This document shows, piece by piece, positions 604 to 24,300 of a stretch of 41,753 nucleotides of DNA. Positions within the stretch are counted from its first letter, which is position 1. Every line of letters starts with the position of its first letter. Under the pieces are notes generated by a model. It was not told where the DNA came from and searched no databases. It was given only the letters and a program-made list of their open reading frames with translations. This DNA comes from Nitrospirota bacterium. GTDB taxonomy: Bacteria; Nitrospirota; Nitrospiria; SBBL01; JAADHI01. A program made the translations under genes and the position numbers. The stretch spans positions 1-41,753 of the forward strand of contig JAJDBX010000012.1 in NCBI GenBank assembly GCA_029261135.1, written 5' to 3'.

Positions 604-1386
604 TTAGGGAGGATATAGTCTCATAATTTCAGTACCCACGAACACTCGCTCTAGAGAATTACCTTCCCATTTGTACCGCTTGTCATAGGGGCCGATAAAC
701 ATATTACTCGAAAGAGGAATCCGAGCAAATGGGTTTTCGAAAACGACAACACCTAACTCTCGCTCTTTCAAGTCAAAGTCTACCTTCATGTCAAACCAAT
801 CCTCCTCTGTCACCGGTTGGCGCTTTTTTAGATCACGCATATGTGCCTCAAGGCGGACTCTCCCCACAGGCACATGGCGCAGAGCAATGAGCGCACTAAT
901 AGTCGTGTTTTGCGTTTGGCCAGTTTTCGGTCTGAACATTTTCCCTCTGTCTAAAAAACCCCATTTTATTGCTGAGGAATCTTTGACACCAGGTGCCGGA
1001 TTAAAGGATTCAATGACACCACAATCACCTAGCATAGCACCGAACATTACATTAGGGTCTTCCAAATTTATAAGAGGCAGGCTTCCACCACTGTAAAGAA
1101 CTAAACAGCACGGCCAGTCTTTGTACTCCTTGAATTTCTTACGACCTGCTTCTATTTTTTCTCGAATCGGATCGTAAGGATCATAGCACCCTACCTCACT
1201 CTCTGGAGGCTTCGATTTAAATTCTTTGACATCAAAAAGGTATTCCTCTTGGTTAACATGTAGCGTGTAATCCGGTAGTCTACTCTTACCAGGATATTCT
1301 CTTTCGAACTCCCAATTCGTCAATTTCTGACTAGCGAGATATTCTTCAAATAGATTTTCACCTGGATAATGTTGAATTGAATTCAT
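604..1386 (-). CDS. PD-(D/E)XK nuclease-like cassette protein
   Basis: This 260-residue protein starts at the ATG at 1386, which begins MNSIQHYPG; a TTG 27 bp upstream is in frame but lies within the attC remnant. Residues about 35-70 carry the pattern of a PD-(D/E)XK nuclease core: an early Glu (FEREYPG), then PDYTL and FDVKEFK, where PD...DVK supplies the two acidic residues and the lysine. The remainder is not recognised. It is flanked by attC-type sites and so behaves as a gene cassette. A role as a restriction or defence nuclease is inference from the motif alone; a protein that only shares the fold is possible. Confidence 0.55.
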   Translation of the reverse strand: MNSIQHYPGENLFEEYLASQKLTNWEFEREYPGKSRLPDYTLHVNQEEYLFDVKEFKSKPPESEVGCYDPYDPIREKIEAGRKKFKEYKDWPCCLVLYSGGSLPLINLEDPNVMFGAMLGDCGVIESFNPAPGVKDSSAIKWGFLDRGKMFRPKTGQTQNTTISALIALRHVPVGRVRLEAHMRDLKKRQPVTEEDWFDMKVDFDLKERELGVVVFENPFARIPLSSNMFIGPYDKRYKWEGNSLERVFVGTEIMRLYPP

Positions 1387-1401
1387 ACCTCTATATTCCC
1401 C

Positions 1402-1428
1402 GCCCAACGCCAACTAGCACATAATTCC
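1402..1428 (-). other. Truncated attC remnant between cassette genes 3 and 4
   Basis: After the stop of the upstream gene the minus strand reads TTGGCGTTGGGC, ending in a GTTGGGC core at 1408-1402. These last 12 bases are identical to the end of the well-formed attC at 1805-1870. The left core and hairpin are absent, so only the right-hand end of an attC seems to survive. This suggests that the two flanking genes now form one unit. Confidence 0.45.
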
Positions 1429-1788
1429 TCACCGACATTGATAAAAACGGCGTAGTACCGAAAGAACAGCATCATGAGCATTCATTGCTCGCAACTGGCT
1501 TGAAGCAGTAATTTCTTTCTCTGTAATAGTCACGAGGTCGGTGCGTGAAGTACCATTCGGGAGACAAATCTTATCATCTTCACGAATGCCATCAACAACA
1601 GCTTGGATGTAACCGTTACAGAAACTAACCCAACTCTCGTCAGCCCGCGTGCAGGCATTTGAAAAACTTGCTCCGGTCATCTGCATTTTAGAATCAATTG
1701 CAAATGCTGGAATTGAAAATAATGTAGTTGCAAAAATGACAGCTACCCCCCACATACGAAAAATCTTACCGAAGGTTACGTTAAACAT
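1429..1788 (-). CDS. Rap1a/Tai-like immunity-type secreted protein on an integron cassette
   Basis: The product is 119 residues with a signal peptide (hydrophobic residues about 10-28, predicted cleavage after AFA). The mature part has the spacing typical of the Rap1a/Tai family: SNAC, then FCNGYIQAVVDGI, then ICLPNG and a terminal YQC. Four cysteines could form two disulfides. Rap1a and relatives are periplasmic immunity proteins against type VI secretion effectors in Serratia; many distant members have no known partner. No effector gene is visible here. An orphan immunity gene on a cassette would fit selection for protection against neighbours, but that is inference. Confidence 0.65.
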   Translation of the reverse strand: MFNVTFGKIFRMWGVAVIFATTLFSIPAFAIDSKMQMTGASFSNACTRADESWVSFCNGYIQAVVDGIREDDKICLPNGTSRTDLVTITEKEITASSQLRAMNAHDAVLSVLRRFYQCR

Positions 1789-1804
1789 CTCTTTCTCCTA
1801 AAGC

Positions 1805-1870
1805 GCCCAACGCCAAAGCTAAGGGGCGCGGCGGCTTTTTGCCGCGTCCCTCTTGAGCGCCTTGTTAGCC
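1805..1870 (-). other. attC recombination site
   Basis: Minus-strand reading runs from GGCTAAC (1870-1864) to GTTGGGC (1811-1805), 66 bp in total. Between them is an imperfect palindrome with arms GCGCTCAAGAGGGACGCGGC and the complementary GCCGCCGCGCCCCTTAGC around an AAAAA loop. This is the fold of a cassette attC (59-base element). It starts 7 bp after the stop of the preceding minus-strand gene, which gives the array orientation. Confidence 0.8.
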
Positions 1871-1877
1871 CATTTAT

Positions 1878-2417
1878 TCATTCTTTGATCTTGTAATCCT
1901 TCAGGATATTATCTATAAAATCTATAAATTTCAGGGCGTACATAGACAAGAGCATTGGAGGTCCCGGCTCCTCTTTCTCCTGTCCGATAATGTTCCAATA
2001 TGCCTTTACCCCCAAATGCCAAGCTGGTCCAGCACCCTTCTGGTTTCTCAAACATTCGCCATATTCGCCGAATCTATTATCAATCATTTGAATAATCTGT
2101 TCGACTGTGCCCATATTCAAATCTGGCTTTAATATCGGCTGGATGTGAGCCATGAATTCTGAGTGAATACCTTTCATGACCTCTAAACCTGTTGAAGATG
2201 GATACTTCTTCGTTAATGTCTCAAAAGATAGGTACATGGCAAATATGAGGATTTCAATCGAATAACTCCATTTGAGATTGTCGGGGTCTTCGCTTAAATC
2301 ATTGATCAGCTTGTTATGATTAAATGGAGATTCGGAAGACATTATTCTATAGCGAATATCCGTGTACAAGACTTTACCTAAATCTTTTGGCGATATCTTT
2401 TTCTTAAAGAGTGCCAT
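1878..2417 (-). CDS. Hypothetical cassette protein (179 aa)
   Basis: I do not recognise this family. The protein begins MALFKKKISPKDLG and looks soluble and mostly helical, with a hydrophobic stretch around IEILIFAMYLSF that is amphipathic rather than a clear membrane segment. It is bounded by attC sites on both sides (1805-1870 and 2459-2548), with the start 42 bp inside the cassette, so it is a complete one-gene cassette. Confidence 0.75.
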   Translation of the reverse strand: MALFKKKISPKDLGKVLYTDIRYRIMSSESPFNHNKLINDLSEDPDNLKWSYSIEILIFAMYLSFETLTKKYPSSTGLEVMKGIHSEFMAHIQPILKPDLNMGTVEQIIQMIDNRFGEYGECLRNQKGAGPAWHLGVKAYWNIIGQEKEEPGPPMLLSMYALKFIDFIDNILKDYKIKE

Positions 2418-2458
2418 TTGAGCTAATCTTTCCTATCCGCATGATCATTTCATATCAA

Positions 2459-2548
2459 GGCTAACGTCTGAAATAAGTGGCGATGCGCGTTTTATGCGCA
2501 GCGTCCAGCCCGCGCCTTTTGCGGGCGAACTTGATTGATTTGTTAGAT
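2459..2548 (-). other. attC recombination site
   Basis: On the minus strand the site runs from ATCTAAC (2548-2542), overlapping the end of the preceding stop codon region, to GTTAGCC (2465-2459), 90 bp in total. Inside are two palindromic blocks, GCCCGC...GCGGGC and GCTGCGCAT...ATGCGC, which would fold into the hairpin expected of an attC. The orientation matches the site at 1805-1870. Confidence 0.75.
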
Positions 2549-3082
2549 TTATCTTGTGCCATTGTAATGAACGCTATCATCATACAAACCAATGTCTCGA
2601 CGTATACCTGATAAAAATATTAAAGCTTTATCTCTAAAAGTATCAAACTCCCAATCTTGTTTTTTCTCAAAGGAGTCATAGATGTAATCAATCATGTCGT
2701 TGTATGTATCAAATACATCTTGAGGTGCGAACATAGCTAATAATGCAGTTGTAGAAAGACGCTCATTATCAAATTGCTGCAAATCTCCTTTGGGTAAATC
2801 TCCTTGATGAAGTGCTTTTACTACTAAAGCAATAACTGGGTTTGCAGCTTCTTTGTACAGTGAAATTTTTTGTAATAAAAGATGATTATTATGCTCTGCT
2901 TCTTTATGCAGTTTCGCTTTTAATTCCTCTAGCTCTGATGCGTATTTTGCACGTTCGCTGACCATCATACGACTAGCCCATACTTTACCTAACCAACTTG
3001 ATAATCCAACAACAATAATAGCTCCACCACCCAATGAAAGTAGGATTGCTTGCGCTATTTGAAATGCTTGTTCTGTATTCAT
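2549..3082 (-). CDS. Hypothetical membrane-anchored cassette protein (177 aa)
   Basis: The product has one N-terminal membrane segment (residues about 10-32, QAILLSLGGGAIIVVGL). A charged helical, probably coiled-coil stretch (about 40-75, rich in Glu/Lys) and a mixed C-terminal domain follow. It resembles a class of small anchored proteins of unknown function often seen on cassettes and islands. It is the first gene of the array in transcription order. No function is assigned. Confidence 0.75.
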   Translation of the reverse strand: MNTEQAFQIAQAILLSLGGGAIIVVGLSSWLGKVWASRMMVSERAKYASELEELKAKLHKEAEHNNHLLLQKISLYKEAANPVIALVVKALHQGDLPKGDLQQFDNERLSTTALLAMFAPQDVFDTYNDMIDYIYDSFEKKQDWEFDTFRDKALIFLSGIRRDIGLYDDSVHYNGTR

Positions 3083-3525: not shown

Positions 3526-3575
3526 TTTCCTTCACACGGAAGAGGTCGCAGGTTCGATACCCGCATCGCCCACCA
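3526..3575 (+). pseudogene. 3' half of a tRNA-Val(CAC) gene; probable attachment site
   Basis: The sequence reads as an anticodon arm with loop TTCACAC (anticodon CAC, valine), a short variable loop, a T arm with GGTTCGA, and an acceptor end ATCGCCC plus ACCA. A 5' half beginning GGGCGAT would be expected about 26 bases upstream and is absent; the preceding DNA does not resemble tRNA. The T stem pairs GCAGG with CCCGC, leaving an A-C mismatch, so this copy is also degraded. Such 3' fragments mark the distal attachment site of elements that integrate into tRNA genes. The intact tRNA should lie left of the window. Confidence 0.75.
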
Positions 3576-3727: not shown

Positions 3728-3755
3728 TTGACATCTCCTTTATTCTTGGTACATT
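3728..3755 (+). promoter_or_regulatory. Sigma-70 type promoter upstream of the c-di-GMP riboswitch
   Basis: TTGACA at 3728-3733 (perfect -35) and TACATT at 3750-3755 (-10 with one or two changes) are separated by 16 bp. Transcription would start near 3762, about 25-30 nt ahead of the riboswitch. No competing gene lies on this strand. Confidence 0.6.
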
Positions 3756-3784
3756 TAATAGAGCGAGTAGAGATATAAAATAAG

Positions 3785-3893
3785 ACGACCCGATAAAAGC
3801 AAAATCACCGTAAGGTGATGACGCAAAGCCACCGATCCTAAAATTAGTGCAAGTGTATGTGGTAATTTTGGACAGCGGAGTTGCCAAAGTGGT
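3785..3893 (+). ncRNA. Cyclic di-GMP-I (GEMM) riboswitch
   Basis: Conserved GEMM-I parts appear in order. There is a GCAAAA segment (about 3799-3804) and a P2 hairpin ATCACC/GGTGAT (3804-3819) capped by a GTAA tetraloop of the GNRA type. The nearly invariant GACGCAAAGCCACCG joining segment starts at 3820. CCTAAAATTA (3837-3846) then pairs with TAATTTTGG (3863-3871) as P3, followed by ACAGCGGAGTTGCC. The GNRA loop and its receptor next to CCTAA are hallmarks of this class. The aptamer lies between a promoter and an intrinsic terminator, upstream of an HDOD gene, so c-di-GMP would control transcription readthrough. Whether the switch is ON or OFF cannot be read from sequence. Confidence 0.88.
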
Positions 3894-3899
3894 TTTTTC

Positions 3900-3937
3900 A
3901 CCCATTTTTCTTTTATCAGGGGAAGGTGGGTTTTTTT
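3900..3937 (+). terminator. Intrinsic terminator, expression platform of the riboswitch
   Basis: ACCCATTTTTCT pairs with the facing GGGGAAGGTGGGT as a continuous stem of about 12 bp with several G-U pairs and an 8-nt loop. A run of seven T residues (3931-3937) follows at once. It sits 7 bp after the aptamer and about 57 bp before the HDOD start codon. Confidence 0.7.
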
Positions 3938-3993
3938 ATATAAAATAGAACAGATAGTTTCACAAAACGTGGAAAAAATTGGAGCGCCTTATT

Positions 3994-4875
3994 ATGAGTA
4001 ATGACGTGATTACCCAGAAGGAACTTACACACGCTAAAAAAGTATTGAGCAGTATCACGATTTTTTCTCAACCGAATAATGTGATCGAAATTAATAGAGA
4101 GCTCAGAAAATCGGACCGGGATTTTGGGAAAATCAACAGTCTTGTTTCTAAGGATGTTGCATTGTCTGCCAAGGTAATAAAGCTCGTGAATACTTCTTTC
4201 TTTGATTTTAAAGGACCCGTTGATTCAACTCAGCAAGCGATTAATTTAGTGATCAAGAGCAATCTCTTTAAAAGTGTTATCGCAACCTCTTTACGCGATG
4301 CTTTAGAAAAAGAGGAACTGGGAAAATATCGGGCGATGTATGAAGAATTTTGGTCCCACTCTGAGCTTGTGTCGGCCATGTCAGGTGTCATTGCACGCCG
4401 GGTGGGTGTCGTGGGCGTGACGACGATAGACCAGGCCCTCATGGCTGGATTATTTCATGATTGCGGTGTACCCATCATGGTGAATCAATTCTCAGACTAT
4501 ATTGAAATGATCAATACGGCCCTCAATGGTGAGACATCAGCCATTGCAGTAGAAAATGACCGCTTCGATACCAACCATTGTGACGTCGGGTACGTGGCAG
4601 CCCAGTCCTGGGCCCTGCCTGAGCCAGTATGTCAAACCATACGCGTCCATCATGATGCGGATATTAAAAAGATTGAGGATCCTTCGGCGAGAAGATTGTC
4701 CGGCATTGTAATGATGGCAGAACATGTGACCCTGGCCTACGGATCTGTCGGGTACAACAGCATGGAGACTGAAGAGCATTGGGTCGCTTCTCACATGGAA
4801 GTCATGAAGGAATTGGACCTCAATCTCTCTGATTTACAAGATCTCAAAGAAGAAGCCTTTGAATTACTGGCTTAA
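3994..4875 (+). CDS. HDOD-domain protein
   Basis: The product is 293 residues from the ATG at 3994, which has GGAG 9 nt upstream; an in-frame TTG at 3979 is less likely. An HDOD domain spans residues about 15-235. It includes the helical core DVALSAKVIKLVNTSFF, then GLFHDCGVPIMV, DTNHCDVGYVAAQSWALP and QTIRVHHD. HDOD is a relative of HD-GYP that usually lacks a complete metal site and acts in signalling. It is downstream of a c-di-GMP riboswitch and 121 bp before an MshEN-like gene. A role in c-di-GMP controlled motility or surface behaviour is inference. Confidence 0.85.
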   Translation: MSNDVITQKELTHAKKVLSSITIFSQPNNVIEINRELRKSDRDFGKINSLVSKDVALSAKVIKLVNTSFFDFKGPVDSTQQAINLVIKSNLFKSVIATSLRDALEKEELGKYRAMYEEFWSHSELVSAMSGVIARRVGVVGVTTIDQALMAGLFHDCGVPIMVNQFSDYIEMINTALNGETSAIAVENDRFDTNHCDVGYVAAQSWALPEPVCQTIRVHHDADIKKIEDPSARRLSGIVMMAEHVTLAYGSVGYNSMETEEHWVASHMEVMKELDLNLSDLQDLKEEAFELLA

Positions 4876-4996
4876 GTTATGGTTCTTGTTGACCCATAAG
4901 CTTTGGAAATGACCAAAAGGATCTCCCTTAAGAAAATCGGAGCAGATCTGATCCTAAATTAAAACAGATCAAAATGATATCATCGAAGGAAACGCT

Positions 4997-5365
4997 ATGG
5001 TTAAAAGTATGTTTGGACAATTCCTCGTCGAACTGGGCATTGTCAATGAAACTTCAGTCTATGAGGCCTTAAATATCCAATTGGGCCAAAAAATTCCTAT
5101 CGGGAAAATTGCACTTCAAGAAGATGTCCTGACGATGAAACAAGTATTTAAAATCTTGAATGTTCAGGCAGACAACAATAAGCGTTTTGGAGAAATCGCC
5201 ATTGAACTGGGGTTTATAGATGGGTTACACCTCAAGGAACTCTTGGCGACCCAAAAAAATAAGATTCAACCCATTGGGGAGATCCTGTTTAAAATGGAGA
5301 AAATCAGTCATGATGTCCTGGAAAGGACTTTGAAAGAATTTAAAGAAATAATGCAGGATGCATAG
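4997..5365 (+). CDS. Stand-alone MshEN-like (GspE N-terminal type) protein
   Basis: The 122-residue protein is almost entirely repeats of the pattern (R/K)(L/F)G..L...G.I....(L)...L..Q. Copies are seen at MFGQFLVELGIV (about 5-30), PIGKIALQEDVL (about 35-55), RFGEIAIELGFI (about 63-88) and PIGEILFKMEKI (about 92-115). In MshE-type ATPases two such motifs bind one c-di-GMP. Here there is no ATPase domain, so this would be a free c-di-GMP receptor or adaptor. SD-like GAAGGAAA lies upstream of the ATG. It probably shares the riboswitch-controlled transcript with the HDOD gene. Ligand binding is unproven. Confidence 0.7.
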   Translation: MVKSMFGQFLVELGIVNETSVYEALNIQLGQKIPIGKIALQEDVLTMKQVFKILNVQADNNKRFGEIAIELGFIDGLHLKELLATQKNKIQPIGEILFKMEKISHDVLERTLKEFKEIMQDA

Positions 5366-8434: not shown

Positions 8435-9067
8435 TTATGGAGAACTGAGTTTCCCCATCATTTCGGTCTGAGCAAGACGCACTTGGAGAAGGATCGCCTC
8501 CTCCGGGGTATCCAGGTCAAAAACAACATGGTCGTTTCCCATTTCGACGGTCGTTACCCGCTCGGGGTTTCTATCGATAAAATTTTTGCACCCGAGATTC
8601 CGGTTTCCATTGAGAATTTCCTCTTGGTGTTCGGAGGAAAGAATGATGGGATTGCCACGACGACTTTTAAAAGTTGGCACCAATACAGAGATTGATCGAT
8701 CATTCAGAAAGCAGGTCACGAGCTGATTAATATCTGCTATTTGCAACAAAGGGAGATCAGAGAGACAGATCATGATCCCTTCACAGGGCTCACGTAAGGC
8801 TTTCAAGCCACAATGGACAGAAGTCATCTGTCCTTCTGCGTAACATTCATTGTAAGCAATCTGCAACGGCATCCCGCTGAGGTAAGTATATGCAGTACCT
8901 GCTTCGTGTCCGATCACAACGACCACTTCACCTAAATTTGCATTCAATAAGATCTGTGCGGTCTGCTTCAATAAAGGTCTGCCATTGATCGGGATGCTCA
9001 ACTTATTCAAACTTCCCATCCGTCGGGACTGCCCGGCTGCGAGTAATATAGCGGATACGCCTTTCAT
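8435..9067 (-). CDS. mocA: MocA-like molybdenum cofactor cytidylyltransferase
   Basis: The 210-residue NTP transferase begins SAILLAAGQSRRMGSLNKL, the nucleotide-binding loop of MobA/MocA enzymes. It has ICLSDLPLL in the metal-binding position and RRGNPIIL in the cofactor-recognition region. MocA converts Mo-molybdopterin to the cytosine dinucleotide form (MCD), which is the cofactor of CO dehydrogenase. It lies between the two XdhC-like genes, 11 bp downstream of the longer one, as expected in a CODH maturation operon. Confidence 0.85.
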   Translation of the reverse strand: MKGVSAILLAAGQSRRMGSLNKLSIPINGRPLLKQTAQILLNANLGEVVVVIGHEAGTAYTYLSGMPLQIAYNECYAEGQMTSVHCGLKALREPCEGIMICLSDLPLLQIADINQLVTCFLNDRSISVLVPTFKSRRGNPIILSSEHQEEILNGNRNLGCKNFIDRNPERVTTVEMGNDHVVFDLDTPEEAILLQVRLAQTEMMGKLSSP

Positions 9068-9078
9068 GTCTTCACATC

Positions 9079-10116
9079 CTAAGCTGATAAAAACTGTGCG
9101 GGTGTTTTCTCAAAAAGATGCTGGCAAGCCCCACAACAAAAGTAATAGTTGTGAGCATGGTGTACGCTCTTAAATTCAGCAGTGGGCACATCAACCTGCA
9201 TTTTGCAGACGGGATCGATGGCTGTTGCTGCTTGATCGGAGTCAGCTGTATCTAAATTATAGATTTTTAAATCAACACTTTTTTCTGAAATCGACGTTTC
9301 CTGTGATTCACTGATATTCTCGATCCCGCCATCACGCCTTATTTTTACGAGTGCAGCGAGAACCGACAGTGCGATTTCTTCAGGTGTTACCGCACCAATT
9401 TCGACGCCTGCAGGGGAGTCGATTGCCGCAACGCGTAAGGGATTATGACCGCGCTCTTTCAGATAAGTACGAAGTTTTTTAGCCTTCTTCGCACTTGCGA
9501 TAAAAGCGATATAAGGAGAACCACTTCCCAGAGCAGCTTCGAGACTCGGTTCATCCCGTTTTCCTTGTGTGGCCACGACAACAAACGGCGGTGGACTCGA
9601 GAAAGAAGTATCCAGCCCATCGACGATCTGCTGCGCATCGGGAAACATCTCTTCATTTGCCCCTGGAAAGACAGCCGTAACGTTAAAGCCGCTACGCGTC
9701 GCTAAGCGCGAGAGAGCTTGGGCCGCGGGTGAAGCCCCGATGATTAATAACATGGGTCGCGCCACAACCGGTTCAATAAAAATATCCAATGTGCCTCCAC
9801 TGTGACAGGTCATCCCGAAATCAACAATCCCTTTCTCTCCTTCCTCATTTTTAGTGGGACTGACCCGAATGAGCCGAGGCTGCCCATCTTTGAACGCTTC
9901 TTTGGCCGCAGAAATGACAGCCGGTTGAGCACAACCTCCGCCCACCCAGCCATCGATGAGTCCTTTAGCGTGAATAATGGCTTTTGCTCCCGGTTTTGCT
10001 GAAGTCGGGGATTCAGCCCTGACAACGGTCGCCAGCACAAAGGGAATGCCTTTCAACTTCATATCACTTACTTTCTCATAAATAGACTCGTTCTTTAACA
10101 TTGAGTGCGTCCTCAT
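9079..10116 (-). CDS. coxF: CoxF/XdhC-like maturation protein with C-terminal YHS metal-binding domain
   Basis: Residues about 10-120 form the XdhC N-terminal domain (SPTSAKPGAKAII, DGWVGGGCAQPA, FGMTCHSGG). Residues about 123-270 are the Rossmann half (LLIIGASPAAQALS, YIAFIASAKKAKK, GAVTPEEIALSVL). A linker then leads to a YHS domain at about 297-343 with DPVCKMQVD and YYFCCGACQHLFEKTP. YHS domains are common in copper and other soft-metal handling proteins. CODH needs copper bridged by sulfur to molybdenum, so this fusion could couple sulfuration with copper supply (inference). The start may be the ATG at 10101, which has a better SD, rather than 10116. Confidence 0.85.
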   Translation of the reverse strand: MRTHSMLKNESIYEKVSDMKLKGIPFVLATVVRAESPTSAKPGAKAIIHAKGLIDGWVGGGCAQPAVISAAKEAFKDGQPRLIRVSPTKNEEGEKGIVDFGMTCHSGGTLDIFIEPVVARPMLLIIGASPAAQALSRLATRSGFNVTAVFPGANEEMFPDAQQIVDGLDTSFSSPPPFVVVATQGKRDEPSLEAALGSGSPYIAFIASAKKAKKLRTYLKERGHNPLRVAAIDSPAGVEIGAVTPEEIALSVLAALVKIRRDGGIENISESQETSISEKSVDLKIYNLDTADSDQAATAIDPVCKMQVDVPTAEFKSVHHAHNYYFCCGACQHLFEKTPAQFLSA

Positions 10117-11307
10117 CTAAAGGTTGATCAGCGCGGGTTCCAATTTGATCAAACTGCTCAAGTTATGTGCAGGGACGAAGAGATCAATAAAGGGCAAAGC
10201 GGCCATCATGCTGCCCGTTTTGGGTGCGTAACCCTCCCTTCCCAAGAGTGGATTGAGCCAGACCAATTTACGACAGCGCTTTTTTATTTTTTCGAGTTGC
10301 GGTAGAATCCGTTCGGGTTTATCGGTATCCAACCCGTCGCTGACAATAATCACGACAGAGCGGTTACTGAGACGATTACCGTAATCTTGGTTAAAAGAAT
10401 CTAGAGATTCGGCAATTCGTGTTCCTCCGGCCCAGCCTTGAGAGATCATCGCCAAGCGATGTTCTCGTTTGATGAAATCGGGTTGCCGCATGGCTTGTGT
10501 AATGTTGACCAATTTCGTGTGATAAGCGAAGGCCTCGGCATCAGAAAAGGCATTGACAATGCCCCGAGCAAAACGTAAAAAAACGTAGCTGTACATGGAC
10601 ATGGATCGGCTGACATCCACCAGTAATAAGAGGCGTGGACGTAATTTGTTCCGCTGGCGAAAAGCCAGATCCAGCGGCGTTCCGCCGTAGCGCAGACTTT
10701 TCCTGAGGGTTCGGCGTAGATCAATACGGCGACCTTGTGTCTGAATCTTTTCTCTGCGAATCAGTTTACGACGCATTTTTCTAGCAAGCTGTTCAACAAG
10801 GGCTTCCACTAAACGCATTTGCCCCTTATCTCTAATAAACTGGAAATCGGTCTGTAAGAGATTTTCTTGAGCACTTGCCCCCTTGCGTGTTCCTTCATCA
10901 CTGGCATTCTGACCTTTATCGTCTTTTTCACGTGAATCCACATCAAGGCTGGCCCCCTCTCTGGAATAATACCTATTCCCGCTTGGGCTGTTATCTCTTG
11001 AGACAGGCATGCCTTCCGTGGCTTGGGAGGAGGTCTTGAGATGGCGCGGTTTCCAGTACGCATCAAAGAGTTCATCAAATCGTTCCCAGTCATCTTGATC
11101 CGAAGAAAGCAAACTGCGCAGTCCCCAACGCAAACGCCGGGGGTGCATGATGCCACACATGAGCGCGATCCGCTGTGCGTCGATTTCTTCAGAAATACCG
11201 ACACAGAAACCCTTCTCACGCGCCAGATGGACAAACTCAAGGAGACGTGCTTGCAAAAAAGAGCCGATGGGTGGGTCTTCTTCTATTTTTAAAAGTTTTT
11301 GACTCAT
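10117..11307 (-). CDS. coxE: CoxE, von Willebrand A-domain CODH maturation protein
   Basis: The N-terminal half is charged and low in conservation (residues about 100-160 are rich in Ser, Asp and Lys). The C-terminal half is a VWA domain with the metal-adhesion motif DVSRSMSM, followed by YSYVFLRFARGIVNAF and VVIIVSDGLDTDKP. In Oligotropha CoxE works with the AAA+ protein CoxD in building the CuSMo active site. Two in-frame starts exist; 11307 is used here because it avoids a longer overlap with coxD, and 11316 is possible. The stop abuts the next gene. Confidence 0.88.
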   Translation of the reverse strand: MSQKLLKIEEDPPIGSFLQARLLEFVHLAREKGFCVGISEEIDAQRIALMCGIMHPRRLRWGLRSLLSSDQDDWERFDELFDAYWKPRHLKTSSQATEGMPVSRDNSPSGNRYYSREGASLDVDSREKDDKGQNASDEGTRKGASAQENLLQTDFQFIRDKGQMRLVEALVEQLARKMRRKLIRREKIQTQGRRIDLRRTLRKSLRYGGTPLDLAFRQRNKLRPRLLLLVDVSRSMSMYSYVFLRFARGIVNAFSDAEAFAYHTKLVNITQAMRQPDFIKREHRLAMISQGWAGGTRIAESLDSFNQDYGNRLSNRSVVIIVSDGLDTDKPERILPQLEKIKKRCRKLVWLNPLLGREGYAPKTGSMMAALPFIDLFVPAHNLSSLIKLEPALINL

Positions 11308-12191
11308 AGCGCACATGCAACCAAGCGTTCAACTTCAGCACGACCAAAGCTTTCACGATCTTCTCGCGTTTTCAGAAGACACACAAGGGAATCCAAAATG
11401 GAATCCATATCCTGATCCAGTCTTGAAATATCCAAGCGAATCAAAGCGGCAGCCCAATCGAGGCTCTCAGAGATTCCCGGGTTTTTGCGCAGATCATTTT
11501 TGCGCAGGTCTTGAACAAAAGAGACCACCTGATGTGCCAGTTGCGACCCAATTTCAGGTAGACGGGTATTGATGATCCGTAACTCTTTATCGAAATCAGG
11601 ATATCCAACATAATAGTAGAGACAGCGGCGGCGGAGTGCATCACTCAGTTCACGTGTCGCATTGGAGGTGAGCACGACGTAAGGCTTGCAGCTTGCTTTG
11701 ATCGTCCCAAGCTCAGGAACACTGATTTGGAAATCCGATAGTATCTCAAGTAGATAGGCTTCGAAAGCTTCGTCTGCGCGATCAAGTTCGTCAATGAGCA
11801 GGACGGGTGGAACCGATTCTGTAATCGCTTGCAACAGAGGTCTTTTTAAGAGGTATTTTTCACTGAAGATCTGATGTTCAGCTTTTTCTGGATGGGTCTC
11901 TTCCTGCTCCAGAAGTTTAATGGCGAGTAGTTGGTGCTGGTAGTTCCATTCATAAACGGCGGTATTCACGTCCAGCCCTTCGTAACACTGGAGCCGAATC
12001 AAAGGGCAGTCGAATATCTTGGCCAGCGTTCGGGCGATTTCTGTTTTTCCAACGCCGGCATCCCCTTCGACCAGCAAGGGGCGATGCAACTGGGTCAATA
12101 ACTCCAGCGTGGATGCAAGACTGCGTTCTGCAATATAACCGGCTTCCAATAAGCGCTCTTGGAAACGCGCTTTTTTGTCTGTTTTTGGCAT
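11304..12191 (-). CDS. coxD: CoxD, MoxR-type AAA+ ATPase for CODH maturation
   Basis: The 295-residue protein has Walker A GDAGVGKTE (43-51), Walker B VLLIDELDRAD (about 129-139), sensor 1 VVLTSNATREL and an arginine-finger region ALRRRCLYYYVGYPD. This is the MoxR/CoxD subfamily, which with a VWA partner acts on large metalloenzymes. CoxD is required for adding sulfur and copper to the Mo centre of CODH in Oligotropha. The gene overlaps coxE by 4 bp, which implies coupled translation. Confidence 0.92.
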   Translation of the reverse strand: MPKTDKKARFQERLLEAGYIAERSLASTLELLTQLHRPLLVEGDAGVGKTEIARTLAKIFDCPLIRLQCYEGLDVNTAVYEWNYQHQLLAIKLLEQEETHPEKAEHQIFSEKYLLKRPLLQAITESVPPVLLIDELDRADEAFEAYLLEILSDFQISVPELGTIKASCKPYVVLTSNATRELSDALRRRCLYYYVGYPDFDKELRIINTRLPEIGSQLAHQVVSFVQDLRKNDLRKNPGISESLDWAAALIRLDISRLDQDMDSILDSLVCLLKTREDRESFGRAEVERLVACAL

Positions 12192-12226
12192 TCAATGCTT
12201 CCAAAAGGAATATTTTTCCTCGACCC

Positions 12227-12817
12227 TCAATCCTTTTTTTTCGGTGAAATGAGATTTTTTATAAATCCCGCAGCAAGTGAGCCAGCAAAAGAAATGCCGT
12301 TGAGTGTCTTGGCTTGTTCTGCCAATTTCTCCCTTGCACTCTCAGCGGCCTTCCCTTCCCCCAAGGCAGTGATCTGATGGACAAAGTTCTTTCCAAACTG
12401 AGCTAGAATTTGATCAGACACTTGCGTCATCATCCGCCCTCCGAGACTGGCGAGCTTTCCATTGACCGTGATGGTGGATTTCCCCTTGAGTTCACAGCCT
12501 TCTCCGTCTTTCGGGACAAGCCAGGCGGTCATCTCCATTTCTGCAGATGAAGAACCCTTGAGATCTTGTCCTTTTCCGATCATCTGTAACTCCTGTTTAA
12601 GATCATCAATATTCTTAACGATAATTTTCCCCTTGAATGCCATCGTGGCCGGACCGACCTTGACCTTAACCTTTCCTGTGTAATGGTGGTCGTATACTTT
12701 TTCGATAATTTCAGCGCCTGGCATACAGGTTGCGACAAGCGGAAGATCGCTCAGAAGTTTCCATGCCGTAGTGGCGGGAAATTCAAAAGGAAAGGTTTTC
12801 TCGACCTTAACTTTCAT
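12227..12817 (-). CDS. coxG: CoxG, SRPBCC-domain membrane-associated CODH protein
   Basis: The start is the ATG at 12817 (MKVKVEKTFPFEF), with GGAG 8 nt upstream; a longer in-frame start at 12886 would reach the coxL stop and is unlikely. The 196-residue product has a CoxG/SRPBCC ligand-binding fold (MPGAEIIEKV, GPATMAFKGKI, KGKSTITVNGKLASLGGRMM). It ends in a hydrophobic tail (ISFAGSLAAGFIKNLISP) with terminal lysines. CoxG proteins attach CODH to the membrane and are linked to quinone access. Here it sits between coxL and coxD. Confidence 0.88.
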   Translation of the reverse strand: MKVKVEKTFPFEFPATTAWKLLSDLPLVATCMPGAEIIEKVYDHHYTGKVKVKVGPATMAFKGKIIVKNIDDLKQELQMIGKGQDLKGSSSAEMEMTAWLVPKDGEGCELKGKSTITVNGKLASLGGRMMTQVSDQILAQFGKNFVHQITALGEGKAAESAREKLAEQAKTLNGISFAGSLAAGFIKNLISPKKKD

Positions 12818-12886
12818 CGGCGATCTCCAAAGTAAAGATGCAGGTGAGGGGGAAGCTCCTTTCCTCGGCTCCAATGACAGGTACAC

Positions 12887-15294
12887 TCAGTCACGTTTGT
12901 CGAGTCCCAATTCATGGATTTTTTTCCAAACTTTCTGTGCGGTGTGAGGCAAGTCCATATGCGTCACACCCAAGTGAGCAAAGGCATCAACAACGGCTGA
13001 GGTAAAACAGGGAATGCTACCCACATGGGGTGATTCGGCAACGCCTTTGGCACCCAAGGGATGATGGGGAGAAGGCGTGACAGTGAAATCAGTTTCCCAT
13101 TGGGGCGTTTCAACAAAGCTTGGAATAAAATAATCCATGAAGGTGTTTCCCAGAAGGTTCCCCTCTTCGTCAAAGGGCATTTCCTGTCCCATGGCCACGG
13201 CAAAACCCTCGGTCAATCCGCCATGAATTTGGCCTTCGATGATCATCGGGTTAATCCGGGTGCCGCAGTCGTCAAGGGCATAAAAACGGCGCACCTTCAC
13301 CTCGCCTGTAAATTTATCGATATCAACGACACTCAGATAAACACCGTAGGGATAGGTGAAATTGGGTGGATCGTAATAGTCCACGGCTTCCAGACCCATC
13401 TCCATGCCTTCAGGCACATTGTTGTAAGCAGCCCAGGCGATCTCTTTCATCGTCTTTTCCTGACCGGGAACCCCTTTCACCTTGAAGCGATCGATCTCCC
13501 AGTCGAGGTCGTCTTCGCTCACTTCCAATAAGTGCGCAGCGATTTTTTTCGCCTTTGCCCGTACCTTGCGTGCCGCAACGGCAGTGGCCGCGCCACCCAC
13601 GGGTGTGGATCGTGAGCCATAGGTCCCCAGCCCATAGGGGGCTGTGTCGGTATCTCCTTCTTCGATCGTGATCTCTTCAGATGGAAGGCCTAGCTCAGTC
13701 GCGATGATTTGCGCATAAGTGGTTTCGTGGGCTTGCCCCGTGCTGATTGTGCCCATGCGCGCCATGACACTTCCGGTAGGATGGACGCGGATTTCCGCAC
13801 TTTCAAACATGCCGACACCGAGTACGTCACAGGCCTTGCTCGGCTCGGCCCCAACGATTTCGGTAAACGTGACGAGCCCGATCCCCATGAGCTCACCTTG
13901 GGCGCGTTTCTCAGCTTGTTCTTTGCGAAGACCTGCGTAATCGACGGCATCCAGCACTTTTTTCAGGGCAGTTGGATAATCGCCACTGTCCAACTCCCAA
14001 CCCAAGCTTGTTTTGTAAGGAAACTGCTCCGCTTGAATAAAATTGCGTGAGCGGATTTCGGCCTTATCGATCCCCAGTTTTTGGGACAGGATATCCATCA
14101 TCCGCTCAATTAAATAGACGGCTTCAGCCACTCGAAACGAGCATCGGTAAGCAACGCCACCTGGCGCCTTGTTGGTGTAAACACCATCAACATTCACATG
14201 TGCGACCGGCACCTGGTAGGAGCCGGTACAGACACTAAATAAACCAGCCGGCCACTTGGTCGGCTGCGCGTGTGAATTGAAGGCCCCATGGTCAGCAAGG
14301 ACCTTGACTTTCAAAGCTTTAATCTTACCATCCTTGTCTGCTGCCAATTCACCCGTCATGTGATAATCCCGTGCCCACGCCGTGGTGGAAAGGTGTTCCA
14401 TTCGGTCTTCAATCCACTTGATCGGACGCCCCAATACGATGGAGGCAACGATAGCGGTAACATAACTGGGATAAACACCCACTTTGTTTCCGAAACCGCC
14501 ACCAATGTCGGGTGAAATAATTCGGATCTTGCTTTCTGGAACACCGGATAAAATGGAGACGACCGTACGCACAATATGAGGGGCCTGGGACGTAATATAA
14601 ACCGTCAGATTTCCTTTGATCTTATCAAAGGAGGCCACACAGCCACATGTTTCTAAAGGGCTTGGATGCACGCGAGGGTATAACATGTCTTCTTTTACAA
14701 CGACATCTGCGGATGCCAGTGCGCGATCGGTGCCTTCTTTGTCGCCTACGGCCCAAGTAAAAATATGGTTAGCATGTTTTCGTGGTCCTTGCCCCACCTT
14801 GTCTTTTTTGACGACATCTTCACGCAGGATGGGTGCGTCCGCATCCATAGATCTGTGCGGATCAACAATGACAGGCAGGGGTTCGTATTCAACTTCGACC
14901 AAGTCAAGGGCATCCGCGGCGATATAACGGTTGTCGGCAATAACCGCCGCAACCTCCTGATATTGAAAATGAACCTTTTCATCTGCCAGCACGGCCTGTA
15001 CATCACCGGCCAAGGTCGGCATCCAATGGAGTTTTAAAGGTTTGAGATCATCGGCAGTGAGTACACTGCATGAACGCCTTTCAGCGCCAAGGCCTTTTTT
15101 TTATTGATCGAGATGATTCGGGCATGGGCGTAGGGACTACGGACCATGTCGGCGAATAAGGTGCCAGGTAATTTAACATCGTCGACGTAGTTTCCTTTAC
15201 CTTGAACAAAACGCGGATCTTCTTTACGCTTGCGTGAACAGCCAATCCCTTCTAGTTTTTCTGCTCGTGCAATATCTTCTGCTGTCGTTCCCAT
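12887..15294 (-). pseudogene. coxL: coxL, large catalytic subunit of form I CO dehydrogenase, frameshifted
   Basis: An 86-residue ORF (MGTTAEDIARAEKLEGIG..., 15294-15034) and a 711-residue ORF (15022-12887) together cover a full-length CoxL. The break is near 15062: homologues continue GVHAV-LTADDLKPL, but here GVHAV is followed by YSLPMISNL and a stop, while the LTADDLKPLKLHWMPTL continuation is in another frame. Two extra bases (TA, 15062-15063), or one missing base, explain it. The catalytic form I loop AYRCSFR (Cu-ligand Cys), GGGFGNK and GAKGVAESPHVG with the Mo-proximal Glu are all present. No other stop occurs, so the lesion is recent or a sequence error. Confidence 0.93.
15054..15069. 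repeat. Hairpin at the coxL frameshift site
   Basis: GCAGTG (15054-15059) and CACTGC (15064-15069) are perfect inverted repeats with loop AGTA. The two bases that appear to be extra in coxL lie in this loop. Small hairpins favour strand slippage, which gives a possible origin for the lesion. Confidence 0.6.
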
Positions 15295-15319
15295 AGTCTC
15301 TGTCCCCTTATGATGCCAT

Positions 15320-15787
15320 TTACATCTTTTCCGCCGCTGTTTTGACCGCTTTGACGATATTTTGATATCCGGTGCAACGGCACAGATTGCCCGATAGCCC
15401 TACGCGAATTTCCTCTTCTGTCGGACTCGGGTTTTCCTGGAGTAATCGATAGGATCGGATCAGCATCCCGGGTGTGCAGAAACCACATTGGAGGCCATGA
15501 TCCTGAATAAAGGCTTGCTGAAGTGGATGTAGTTCCCCGTTTGTGGCAAGACCTTCGACGGTCATCACTTCTCCGCCATCTGCTTGTACGGCGAGTATGG
15601 TGCACGATTTGACCGAATTGCCATTGAGGTCAACGGTGCAGACACCGCAGTGACTGGTATCGCAACCAATATGAGTGCCTGTTTTTCCAAGCTGCTCACG
15701 AATGACATGGGCAAGGAGCTCACGTGTTTCGACCTCCACCTCGACCTCTTGCTCATTTAATTTGAAGGAAATTTTCTTCTTAATCAT
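15320..15787 (-). CDS. coxS: CoxS, small iron-sulfur subunit of CO dehydrogenase
   Basis: The 155-residue protein carries two [2Fe-2S] clusters. The plant-type site is [16 protein letters not shown] with a later Cys in VKSCTI. The second, in a four-helix domain, is [10 protein letters not shown] and [10 protein letters not shown]. CoxS passes electrons from the Mo/Cu site to the FAD of CoxM. Its ATG overlaps the coxM stop (ATGA), so translation would be coupled to coxM. The gene is intact, unlike its two partners. Confidence 0.95.
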
Positions 15788-16664
15788 TCTGCTGACCTCC
15801 TTGCTCCCGACAATGCATCGCGAATAGAACGTCGAGTCATTTCCGCGGCCATATGTGTCTTGTATGTGACATCCCCACGCAGATCTTCAGCGGGTTCGCA
15901 GGTCTCCATTACATTTTGTGCGGCTTCTTCAATGAGCGCGTCATCAATAACTTCGCCCTTGAGCAAGCTCTCGGCTTCATCGGCACGGAAGGCACAGGGG
16001 CCGACGTTGGTCAAGGCAATCCGGATTCCATCACAAATCTCTCCCCTGAGACCGAGGACAACCGTTGATCCTGCTGTTGCAAAATCGCCTGTTTTACGTT
16101 TCAGTTTGTTGAAGCCATAACCGGTACCTGGTGTAAGACTGGGGACGATCACGGCGACCATTATCTCGTCGGGTTCAAGGCCAGTCATGTAAGTGCCGAG
16201 AAAAAACCCATTCGCCGGGATAGTTCGTTCCCCTTGAGGACCTCTGATGACGAACCTTGCACCAAGCGCCAACATGACTGCAGGGTGATCGTTGCCTGGG
16301 TCGCCGTGTGCGATATCGCCGCCGATCGTTCCTCGGTTTCCTATTTGCGGGTCGGCAATGAGTTTTGCCGCTTCTACAATCAATGGGCACTTGGATCGGA
16401 TCGGATCAGCTCAGATTCAATGAGCTCTGTTTCCGTCGTCATCGCACCGATACGAATTTGAATGCCTTCGTCTATAATGCCTTTGAGTTCTGGTATTTCA
16501 AAAATATTAATAAGATGCGCCGGTTCCGCAAAGCGGAGTTTCATCATGGGCAAAAGACTATGTCCCCCGGCAATAATTTTGGCATCTTCAGAGTACTCGG
16601 TCAGTAATTGGATTGCATCATCCAGGCTCGCTGGGGTATGAAATTCAAATTCACTCGGAATCAT
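15784..16664 (-). pseudogene. coxM: coxM, FAD-binding medium subunit of CO dehydrogenase, frameshifted by a 5-bp repeat
   Basis: The start is the ATG at 16664 (MIPSEFEFHTPASLDD), with GGAGG 6 nt upstream. The first part shows the FAD motif AGGHSLLPMMK and runs to SELIRSDPSAH and a stop. The remainder (KCPLIVEAAKLIADPQIGNRGTIGGD onward) is in another frame to 15784. The junction holds three tandem GATCC units (16393-16407, plus strand GGATC x3). With two units the reading would be SELIRSKCPLIVEAAK, exactly as in homologues. So one 5-bp unit has been gained. The second FAD motif TIGGDIAHGDPGND and KRKTGDFATA are intact. Confidence 0.93.
16393..16407. repeat. Three tandem 5-bp units inside coxM
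   Basis: The plus strand reads GGATC three times in a row. The unit length is not a multiple of three, so gain or loss of one copy changes the frame. Two copies restore the full coxM frame. Confidence 0.9.
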
Positions 16665-21015: not shown

Positions 21016-22716
21016 TTAAAGCTTTTCCAAATCGATCTCAAAGGCAACGGTTGGCATACCGATCTGCCAGGCATCAAGCACTTCGGGGTTGATTTCTCCG
21101 ATCAATCCAATTTCTTGATTTTCGACCATTATTTTTCCTGAGCGGCCTTCGATAAAACTGGGATGCGGGATGGGTTCGAGTTCATACGGTGTGGAGAGAC
21201 GGCCAAAAACCGTTTCAAGAATGGAGTGGAGTTCGGAGAAATTTGCACCGGGGTGGGCGATTAATGCCGCAAGATGGACTTTTGTTTCTGTCTTTGCGCC
21301 TGTGTCGGGCGCGAGTCGGGCCACTTCACCCACTTCAAAAATGTAATGCGGATAAAACGCTTTTGAGCTGCTTCCTTCCACACGAAGTAGAGAAGGCAGC
21401 AACCACGAACGAAGCAAAGAAAAGCGTTCGGTCATCGGATTTTCGATTTCGATGATCGCGGTTTCCGGGCGATGGCTCTTGTCTGAATCCAGCGCCATTT
21501 TTTCAATAAAATCTTCGGATGAGCCCAGGATGTTCGACACCACCTCTTCAAAACCAAAGCCGACCATCGCCCCTCGCATCGCATCTGAAAATTGCTCGAT
21601 TTGAGAGAGTGCCCCCACGGTAAAGGTCGCAGGCATGTCCGGCGTGAAAGAATTGTAGCCACGCGAAATGGCAAAATCTTCCACCAAATCAATGGCGTGC
21701 ATGAGGTCATCCCGATAAGGGGCTGCGTTCACGGTAATTTTTTCGCCTTCTGTTTTGACAATCAAGCCATATTTTTCAAGCACCGAAACCGCCTCTTCCA
21801 AATCCACGGATTCCCCGAGGACTTGATTCAACTCGCTCAAGGCCACATCAACCGGCTCGCTTAGATTGTAAGGGGTCTGAAAAACCGATCCAAAATCGCT
21901 TGCTTCCGAATAATTTAAAGCCACCGGCTCAATGCTTGCCCCGCGGTCTGAAAGGTTTGCAGCAAAAATATTGAGCGCCAAAGTCACCATGCGCAGATCC
22001 GTCCCTGTCACTTCGACAAAGAGTTCGGAGTCGCCCACTTCAACTTCTCCCAATCTGCGGCTATTGATAATCGGCGGAAATGAGAGGATCTCTCCCATCG
22101 CGTCCATCAAAATAGGGAAACGTTCGGCACCGCTCAAAGTGTTGGCATATTCAATCCCTTTGGGATGTTCTGTCATAATTTTTTTCAGACTCATCGGTGT
22201 TTCAAAACCCAGCGGAACAAATTCGGTTGTTTCAGGATCGACCAACTGATACTTGACCGGGAACTTGATTTTTTGGAGGCGATAAAGACCGATGGAGACC
22301 ATTTGACGATTGCGTCCAAAACTATCCGCCAGTTTTTCCTGTGTTTGAATCAGCTGTTCTAAAATGGGTTCCGTCACGGTCATGCCACGCGAAATACAGG
22401 CGGCCAGATAAGGACGTACGGATGAAACCTCTTTTGAAATATCGACTTGGTGATTGGCTTTTTTTGCATCACTAAAAAAAGGATAGGCTTGCGACCAAGG
22501 TTTTGTCGCGGGAAGGATTTGCCGCACCACCCCTTCGGGAGACCAGAGGTCAGGGCGATTGGTGTCATTGAGTTCAATTTTGACTGAATCACTCTCCCGG
22601 AAAAAATCTTTGACTTCCCCTTTCACTTTTTCAAGCAAGGTTTCAAGCTTTTCCTGATCCACTTTTTCTTTGAGCAACGATTCAAAATCGCTGATTGACA
22701 CTTCAATCGTCGGCAT
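21016..22716 (-). CDS. pheT: Phenylalanyl-tRNA synthetase beta subunit, archaeal/eukaryotic type
   Basis: At 566 residues this is far shorter than the usual bacterial PheT (about 790). It lacks the N-terminal EMAP-type tRNA-binding domain and the C-terminal anticodon-binding extension. It begins MPTIEVSISDFESLLKEKVD and has DTNRPDLWSPEGVVRQI, the pattern of archaeal PheT. Central parts include the B3/B4-type editing region (RFPILMDAMGEILSFPPIIN) and the B5 domain. It forms an alpha2-beta2 enzyme with PheS, whose gene ends 3 bp upstream. Confidence 0.92.
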   Translation of the reverse strand: MPTIEVSISDFESLLKEKVDQEKLETLLEKVKGEVKDFFRESDSVKIELNDTNRPDLWSPEGVVRQILPATKPWSQAYPFFSDAKKANHQVDISKEVSSVRPYLAACISRGMTVTEPILEQLIQTQEKLADSFGRNRQMVSIGLYRLQKIKFPVKYQLVDPETTEFVPLGFETPMSLKKIMTEHPKGIEYANTLSGAERFPILMDAMGEILSFPPIINSRRLGEVEVGDSELFVEVTGTDLRMVTLALNIFAANLSDRGASIEPVALNYSEASDFGSVFQTPYNLSEPVDVALSELNQVLGESVDLEEAVSVLEKYGLIVKTEGEKITVNAAPYRDDLMHAIDLVEDFAISRGYNSFTPDMPATFTVGALSQIEQFSDAMRGAMVGFGFEEVVSNILGSSEDFIEKMALDSDKSHRPETAIIEIENPMTERFSLLRSWLLPSLLRVEGSSSKAFYPHYIFEVGEVARLAPDTGAKTETKVHLAALIAHPGANFSELHSILETVFGRLSTPYELEPIPHPSFIEGRSGKIMVENQEIGLIGEINPEVLDAWQIGMPTVAFEIDLEKL

Positions 22717-22719
22717 CGC

Positions 22720-24300
22720 TTACCTGTTTATTTTAGAAGAAATATGTTGTTTTTCTCGGATCAAACCCAGATCCGAGGAGAATAAATCGCGGATATCGGA
22801 GATCCCTAAAGCGATCATCGCCATACGATCCAGGCCCAGTCCCCATGCGATCACGGGCACGTCCACACCCAGAGGCCCGGTCACTTCAGGCCGGAACAGG
22901 CCTGCACCGCCCAATTCCATCCATCCTAATTTGGGATGACGCACATGCATTTCAACCGAGGGCTCGGTAAAAGGGAAGTAGGCGGGCAAAAATTTAATTT
23001 CTTCCGCAAGCGCCACCTCTTTTGCAAAAAGGGTTAGTAGACCCAAGAGCGTTCTGAAGTGAATCTCCGCGCCGAGCACAATGCCTTCCACCTGAAAAAA
23101 ATCGGGCGCGTGCGTGGCATCCACTTGATCGTAACGAAAACAACGCGCAATTGAAAAATACTTTCCAGGGCTTTCCGCACCTTCGCCAAGTGTCCGCGCG
23201 GAAACGGAGGTGCCCTGACTTCTTAAGATCAGCCGCCGTGTGCGCTCTGCATCAAAGGGGTAACGCCAGCCGCGCGAACCGCTCTCTCCACCGTTTTCAT
23301 GGGCATCCGCCACACGGTCAATCACCGTTTTATCAATAGTTTCATCATGGGGATAATCTTTAACAAAATACACATCGTGGATCTCTCGTGCGGGATGAAA
23401 TTGCGGCATGAAGAGGGCATCCATATCCCAAAATTCATTCTCGACGAGTGGCCCCCGCATTTCAGAAAAACCCATTGAAACAAACTTCTGTTTCACCTGA
23501 TCTAAAAAAGCTTTGTAGGGATGTAATGCCCCGCCGGTCAAACGTGAGGGCGGAAGCTGGATATTGTATTTTCGAAATTGTTTCCCGCGCCAGCTGCCTT
23601 CTTTAAGGAGTTCCGGCGTGAGTTCATTCAAGGTTTCAATCACTTTTTCTGAGGCGATTTTTTGGAAGAGCGGGTCAAACAAATTGGTCTTTTCATAAGT
23701 ACGCGTCACTTCGGCATCCACACGAAAAATACCTTTGGAGGGACTTCTTTTCCGGTGATTGGCGTCAATGATCAATTGGTCTTGATCTGAAAAATCGGTC
23801 AGCGGAGAGACATTGCCATTGAGGCTTAATCCGTCGATTACCTTTTGAAGGGCGCGAAATTCAAGGAGTTTACCTTCGTCAGAAATTTTGAAGGCTCCAC
23901 CTGGCACCACCTCTACCACGCCTTTTGTTTTAAGCGCTCCAATGGCCCGGCTCTTCTCTTCCTGTTCCATATCTCTGCGCTGCTGCAACTCTCGAATAGG
24001 GACTTCTCCGCGTGCAAGAATTTCCTCTGCCATTCGAAGCGGAGGATTTTTGGCTTCAGCATATTTTTGCCCAATATCCGTCAATCGCACAATTTGATTT
24101 TCTGTCTCGTCTGAAACTGAAATAACTTCTTTGGCCAACAACCACTGAAGGGCCGAAGAAATTTGGGCAGGCTTTAATCCCGATCCCTCAACAAGAGCCT
24201 GGGGATCTATACTTTCTTTTTCCGAAAAAAGACGCAGCACCTGTTTTTCAAGCGGATGCAATCCCTCAGCTAAATTGGAAAGGGCAGATTCGTCGATCAA
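22720..24300 (-). CDS. pheS: Phenylalanyl-tRNA synthetase alpha subunit, archaeal/eukaryotic type
   Basis: The 526-residue protein starts with winged-helix modules ([20 protein letters not shown], then helices to residue about 170) in place of the coiled-coil N-terminus of bacterial PheS. The class II catalytic domain shows [21 protein letters not shown] (motif 1 region), [20 protein letters not shown] (motif 2) and [13 protein letters not shown] (motif 3). It charges tRNA-Phe together with PheT. The start overlaps the rpe stop by 4 bp. Confidence 0.93.

Follow-up and report, generated by a model that had tools for sequence, protein, structure and literature searches.

Organization of the locus

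The 41,753-bp window analyzed here is a stretch of a Nitrospirota genome assembly (3.2 Mb, 77 contigs, 95% complete, 2.7% contaminated) in which a riboswitch precedes two genes, one encoding an HDOD-domain protein and the other a small protein made up of MshEN-type motifs. The arrangement raises the question of which cyclic dinucleotide controls this gene pair, and in which direction. An earlier note on this sequence had proposed a transcript gated by c-di-GMP that also encodes a putative c-di-GMP receptor, providing a two-level response. The elements that it listed, namely promoter, GEMM-I aptamer, terminator, HDOD gene and a 122-residue MshEN-type gene, are all present in the order claimed on the forward strand between positions 3728 and 5365 (Table 1).

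Table 1. Features of the riboswitch locus and its two downstream genes (window coordinates).
Feature	Position	Strand	Evidence
Sigma-70-like promoter, TTGACA-16-TACATT	3728..3755	+	-35 and spacer recurrence in homologous loci
GEMM-I aptamer (c-di-GMP-I)	3788..3888	+	Rfam RF01051, 65.4 bits
Aptamer 5' strand GATAAAAG, antiterminator helix 1 with 3910-3917	3792..3799	+	Complementarity, folds
A at Vc2 G20 / 84Gm A14 position, directly 5' of P2	3798	+	Rfam alignment, 54 aptamers compared
P1 3' strand AAAGTGG, antiterminator hairpin 2 with 3902-3908	3886..3892	+	Constrained fold
Intrinsic terminator (3900-3931) plus T run	3900..3938	+	Terminator scan, fold
HDOD-domain protein, 293 aa	3994..4875	+	Pfam PF08668, E 3e-39
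Free-standing four-motif MshEN-type protein, 122 aa	4997..5365	+	NCBIfam NF053729, E 1.8e-21; model

The promoter was not significant in a bulk promoter scan, and comparative recurrence was used for this reason: 8 of 11 homologous riboswitch loci have TTGACA followed by a 16-base spacer 28-32 nt upstream of their aptamer. The HDOD gene starts with an ATG at 3994, with GGAG upstream. The 121 nt separating the HDOD and MshEN-type genes revealed neither a terminator-like nor a promoter-like site, which makes their co-transcription likely.

Just upstream of the riboswitch, positions 3542-3575 repeat without mismatch 34 nt from the 3' end of tRNA-Val(CAC), a gene present in full on contig C65; this copy looks like the attachment-site remnant of an integrated element. 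The genes at 604-3082, near the tRNA copy, are of mostly unknown family, and a Rap1a-type immunity protein (PF18602, E 1.2e-12) is encoded on the reverse strand at 1429-1788, with no evident partner gene nearby. Also on the reverse strand of the window are an aerobic CO dehydrogenase cluster at approximately 8435-16383 (CoxL, TIGR02416, 1297.8 bits), where the neighbors of CoxL resemble by eye Cox/XdhC maturation genes, and, at 21016-24300, an archaeal-type phenylalanyl-tRNA synthetase in a bacterium (pheT_arch TIGR00471, 494.8 bits against a cut-off of 282.65, and PheS NF003210).

Aptamer and ligand specificity

The sole Rfam match in the window, identified with cmscan, is RF01051, which extends over model positions 1-87 of 87 with a score of 65.4 bits (E 9.5e-11; gathering score 35), so that the GEMM-I call of the earlier note holds with a full-length hit well above threshold. 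Nine GEMM-I aptamers are present in the window genome.

Papers from 2015 reportedly treat an A at the position of Vc2 G20 (A20) as the natural mark of Geobacter cGAMP switches, in keeping with the crystal structure and the Geobacter loci considered below. The window aptamer has an A at this position (A3798), as do four other GEMMs of the same genome. In the crystal structure of a cGAMP riboswitch, the equivalent of Vc2 G20 is A14, and P2 starts at C15 (PMC6274999). The window aptamer shares with the Geobacter GEMM-Ib switches (pilM, pgcA, Gm0970) the GEMM-I fold, the A at the G20 position and the GAUAA J1/2 bases, but differs from them in the P2 bases beside A20, which are G-C in the window, as in Vc2, and C-U in nearly all Geobacter A20 loci. 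Given this Vc2-like pair, dual binding of cGAMP and c-di-GMP is possible; G20A versions of c-di-GMP aptamers also accept cGAMP, and cGAMP riboswitches can bind c-di-GMP (PMC6274999, PMC9262584).

The likeness to the Geobacter GEMM-Ib systems extends to the presence of a Hypr GGDEF (GacA) partner in the genome. Three GGDEF domains of the window genome have Ser at the Asp344/348 position, and the copies on contigs C41 and C45 combine Ser348 with GGDEF rather than GGEEF. The C41 domain (C41:86718-87200) carries Ser348, the GGDEF motif and Leu304 in place of Arg, matching the Hypr features (Ser348, GGDEF, non-Arg304) named in PMC6456294, and, of the solved structures, the Hypr GGDEF 6d9m of Geobacter metallireducens is closest to it (1.6e-49, compared with 1.7e-29 for PleD). 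This GacA-like Hypr GGDEF is probably the maker of cGAMP for the switch. The third copy, in an FHA-GGDEF-like protein of the same genome (G000:C72:89429-89899, L038), pairs the Hypr-type Ser with GGEEF; this pairing is reported to be inactive (PMC6456294), and the copy is predicted to be inactive as well.

Orthologs of the C41 enzyme (Ser348, GGDEF, no Arg304) occur in 16 of 21 genomes and stand apart from other GGDEF domains (E 7e-59 or better, with the next GGDEFs at approximately 1e-41). An ortholog is present in all 15 genomes carrying an A20 aptamer, is absent from G018, whose only GEMM has G20, and is found in one (G020) of the five genomes devoid of GEMM. The association between GEMM presence and the GacA-like enzyme (Fisher test, P 0.004) comes from related genomes, and is for that reason suggestive only. 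No cGAMP riboswitches described in Nitrospirota were found in the literature covered.

The A20 pocket and the GacA-like Hypr GGDEF together make 3',3'-cGAMP, or cGAMP plus c-di-GMP, a more likely ligand than c-di-GMP alone. The c-di-GMP gating put forward in the earlier note is hence upheld as regards the GEMM-I aptamer, but not as regards c-di-GMP as the lone ligand. An ordinary c-di-GMP OFF switch, in which A20 is tolerated, c-di-GMP is the physiological ligand and the operon is off at high c-di-GMP, would fit the Rfam class (c-di-GMP-I), the approximately 30 GGDEF domains of the genome, nearly all canonical, and the P2 base pairs, which are as in Vc2; G20 also occurs with the same layout in G001:C71 and in two G006 loci. 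Nevertheless, A20 is found in 8 of the 11 loci of this layout and co-occurs with the GacA ortholog, and we regard such a switch as rather unlikely.

Expression platform

The layout set comprises eleven loci of the CGATAAGAGC-type, the window included. The loop region of the window terminator (3910-3917, CTTTTATC) matches the aptamer 5' strand by complementarity that takes in A20 and G21, and in a constrained fold of the window the hairpin between 3886-3892 and 3902-3908 nests inside this helix 1. Over the eleven loci, 91.8% of the cells of the antiterminator helix are paired, falling to 50-71% when the alignment is slid by one to three columns. Two pairs are changed on both sides, one of them being the window's G-C to A-U; because 54 of 500 shuffles do as well, the covariation support is moderate. 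When transcripts that stop short of the terminator 3' arm are folded, 9 of the 11 loci, window included, form the antiterminator helix with a probability near 1, and the folds of the two G006 loci do not contain helix 1. With the whole of the 3' arm transcribed, the terminator prevails over the antiterminator in the folds, and the full-length minimum free energy structure of the window transcript favors the terminator even without ligand, so that OFF control would have to be kinetic.

A ligand-OFF switch is predicted from the potential antiterminator pairing between aptamer 5' strand and terminator loop. A separate terminator and a competing antiterminator drawn from aptamer strands correspond, in anatomy only, to the Cd1 type of OFF switch, which in Clostridioides difficile responds to c-di-GMP. 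In Cd1, a transient antiterminator later refolds into the terminator, and ligand binding preserves the aptamer so that the terminator can form (PMC9262584), as is predicted for the window. The two systems differ in that Cd1 senses c-di-GMP and controls flagellar genes, whereas the window combines an A20 pocket with HDOD-MshEN genes.

The opposite direction, in which the ligand raises HDOD-MshEN transcription as in Geobacter, has precedent in the characterized Geobacter cGAMP switches, which are ON (PMC9262584, PMC6456294), and in the other A20 class of the same order, which has the ON layout. The A20 aptamers of three Geobacter-type genomes, used as a control, have terminators that mostly use the aptamer 3' strand, which is the ON layout. 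In contrast, the window terminator is separate from the aptamer, a Cd1-like OFF anatomy, and its 5' arm and loop can pair with both strands of the aptamer to give the predicted antiterminator. An ON platform was rejected on this anatomy, and we consider an ON response improbable.

The second A20 GEMM class (CTTTGCTCAGAGC) is represented in the window genome at G000:C35:23953-24077 (L007) and in its order-mates G005, G006 and G011-G017. Its terminators overlap the aptamer 3' strand, and its members are predicted ON switches.

The interpretation that we favor, to which we assign somewhat better than even chances, is that an HDOD-MshEN operon is controlled by a GEMM-Ib (A20, cGAMP-type) transcription-termination switch whose platform is ligand-OFF. 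In the ligand-free state, 3792-3799 and 3886-3892 would pair with the terminator 5' arm and loop (3902-3917) as an antiterminator, allowing RNA polymerase to read through into both genes. Binding of 3',3'-cGAMP, or of cGAMP and c-di-GMP, would hold the aptamer 5' strand in the pocket, whereupon the terminator would form and both HDOD and MshEN would be shut off.

The MshEN-type protein

The product of the second gene matches NF053729, an MshE-related c-di-GMP motif domain, in three overlapping registers, and consists of four 24-residue motifs in register, separated by 5-residue spacers. A single-sequence fold was poor (pLDDT 41), and an alignment-based model was used instead (pLDDT 91, eight helices), in which the four motifs are predicted to fold as two MshEN_N four-helix bundles. 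The top Foldseek match of this model is the MshE-c-di-GMP complex 5htl (rmsd 0.7 Å over 56 columns, probability 1.00, E 0.13), in line with the MshEN assignment originally made from the sequence. Motif length, spacer length and superposition on 5htl are shared with the MshEN domains of Vibrio cholerae MshE and Thermus PilF GSPII-B, from which the window protein differs in its four consecutive motifs, in the absence of ATPase and MshEN_C domains, and in a mostly lost Arg. The canonical Arg-Leu-Gly (RLG) motif starts read MFG, PIG, RFG and PIG in the window protein: the Arg is replaced in motifs 1, 2 and 4 (by M, P and P) and kept in motif 3, none of the four motifs has lost the Gly, and the Gln is missing from motif 4 only. 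The motifs score 5-9 of 11, compared to 11 of 11 for MshE. Homologs in C61 (68-69% identical), G007 and G005 are without even the remaining Arg.

The C61 homolog (G000:C61:61547-61897, L107) is a solitary MshEN-type paralog of the window genome, with an IS3-like transposase fragment, recognized by eye, approximately 0.9 kb upstream.

The loss of the RLG Arg in three of four motifs makes c-di-GMP binding uncertain. In MshE, however, R9 changes have at most an approximately fivefold effect on affinity, and changes of the hydrophobic residues a more than tenfold effect (Wang et al.; PMC5013675), and the window protein may bind despite the Arg loss. A degenerate relic or structural repeat protein, binding no nucleotide, like XpsE, would account for this loss, which affects all four motifs of the C61 paralog, as well as for the missing Gln and the lowered motif scores. 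The retained Gly and Gln residues, the limited effect of R9 mutation and the conservation of the MshEN-type family across Nitrospirota and Geobacter speak against a relic, which we view as a sizeable possibility falling short of even chances. The protein is instead probably a tandem MshEN_N module whose binding of a cyclic dinucleotide is weak or relies on altered contacts. The putative c-di-GMP receptor of the earlier note thus keeps its fold and a plausible role, with the loss of Arg counting against it.

Relatives of the window protein in Geobacter and Desulfuromonadaceae are 288-residue MshEN-CheX fusions. Their N-terminal four-motif half is homologous to the window protein (28-33% identical), which differs in having no CheX domain. 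Of the three MshEN-CheX loci with neighbors examined, two have a CheY-like gene immediately upstream.

The HDOD protein and its pairing with MshEN

The first gene of the pair encodes a clear HDOD protein, at 135 bits against a PF08668 cut-off of 22.9. Its translation reads VHHDADIK, has no GYP motif, and scores below the cut-off of the HDIG model; an HD-GYP phosphodiesterase was rejected for lack of the GYP motif, and the protein is a probable non-catalytic signaling scaffold. In Pseudomonas fluorescens, the HDOD protein SadB is a c-di-GMP binder with a part in controlling flagella (PMC6543031), and by analogy the window HDOD could itself be a receptor. The window protein shares with SadB and GsmR an HDOD domain and a setting of cyclic dinucleotides and motility; it differs in having no YbaK and in that its function is a predicted one.

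Homologs of the HDOD protein at E 1e-25 or better were not found in the same order, and a contig scan with HDOD found no relatives. The best homologs are 34-38% identical and belong to other classes of Nitrospirota, and no GEMM was found with Rfam in the loci of the closest ones. The scarcity of homologs within the order suggests that the window HDOD was recently recruited.

This history bears on a further proposal of the earlier note, according to which the MshEN protein serves as a c-di-GMP-dependent adaptor for its HDOD neighbor. The two genes are adjacent on one strand with no terminator between them, the 122-residue protein has an MshEN fold, and SadB provides an instance of c-di-GMP binding by an HDOD protein (PMC6543031). 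Yet a comparison of coordinates in 20 relatives placed no HDOD gene near MshEN or GEMM among the MshEN matches listed, and the notion of a conserved HDOD-MshEN module was rejected. With the pair seen in the window genome alone, an HDOD-specific adaptor is without comparative support; moreover, MshEN paralogs occur without HDOD, the Geobacter versions are fused to CheX instead, and the HDOD appears to be a recent arrival, all of which make a dedicated adaptor quite unlikely. The HDOD-MshEN operon under the switch is best read as newly assembled.

Sister switches

Switches of the same layout precede SLT lytic transglycosylase genes on contigs C40 and C72, the next gene encoding PilZ (C40) or a DnaJ-PilZ-like protein (C72) whose PilZ part scores under the Pfam cut-off. 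In G001:C71 the switch is immediately followed by a PilZ gene, and in G006:C41 by a flagellar-like gene (by eye) and then PilZ. Other switches of this layout lie before a CheX-like gene in G007:C88 (by eye; no Pfam match) and before a cytochrome/porin operon on C50. The repeated occurrence of sister switches before PilZ genes points to a regulon theme in which the riboswitch is paired with cyclic-dinucleotide receptor domains, a pattern that the window MshEN gene looks to fit. The two-level response of the earlier note is supported in this broader form, and a c-di-GMP receptor role for MshEN within it is plausible.

Discussion

The observation that opened this analysis is confirmed, and its interpretation is partly supported, with changes to the ligand, the receptor role and the adaptor. 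Beyond the single locus, we tentatively envisage a cGAMP-OFF regulon in Nitrospirota, possible but not the likelier outcome, in which cGAMP would shut off the synthesis of c-di-GMP receptors (PilZ, MshEN) and set the motile state; the downstream phenotype may be motility or cell-envelope remodeling.

In the literature covered, the cGAMP riboswitches described come from Geobacter, where they act as ON switches connected with extracellular electron transfer. The occurrence, in another phylum, of A20 switches of OFF anatomy alongside a GacA-like enzyme would broaden both the range of organisms that use cGAMP and the ways in which they use it. If the cGAMP-OFF regulon is true, it would amount to direct cross-talk between cGAMP and c-di-GMP at the RNA level, and an A20 switch beside PilZ or MshEN genes would make this cross-talk testable in vitro.
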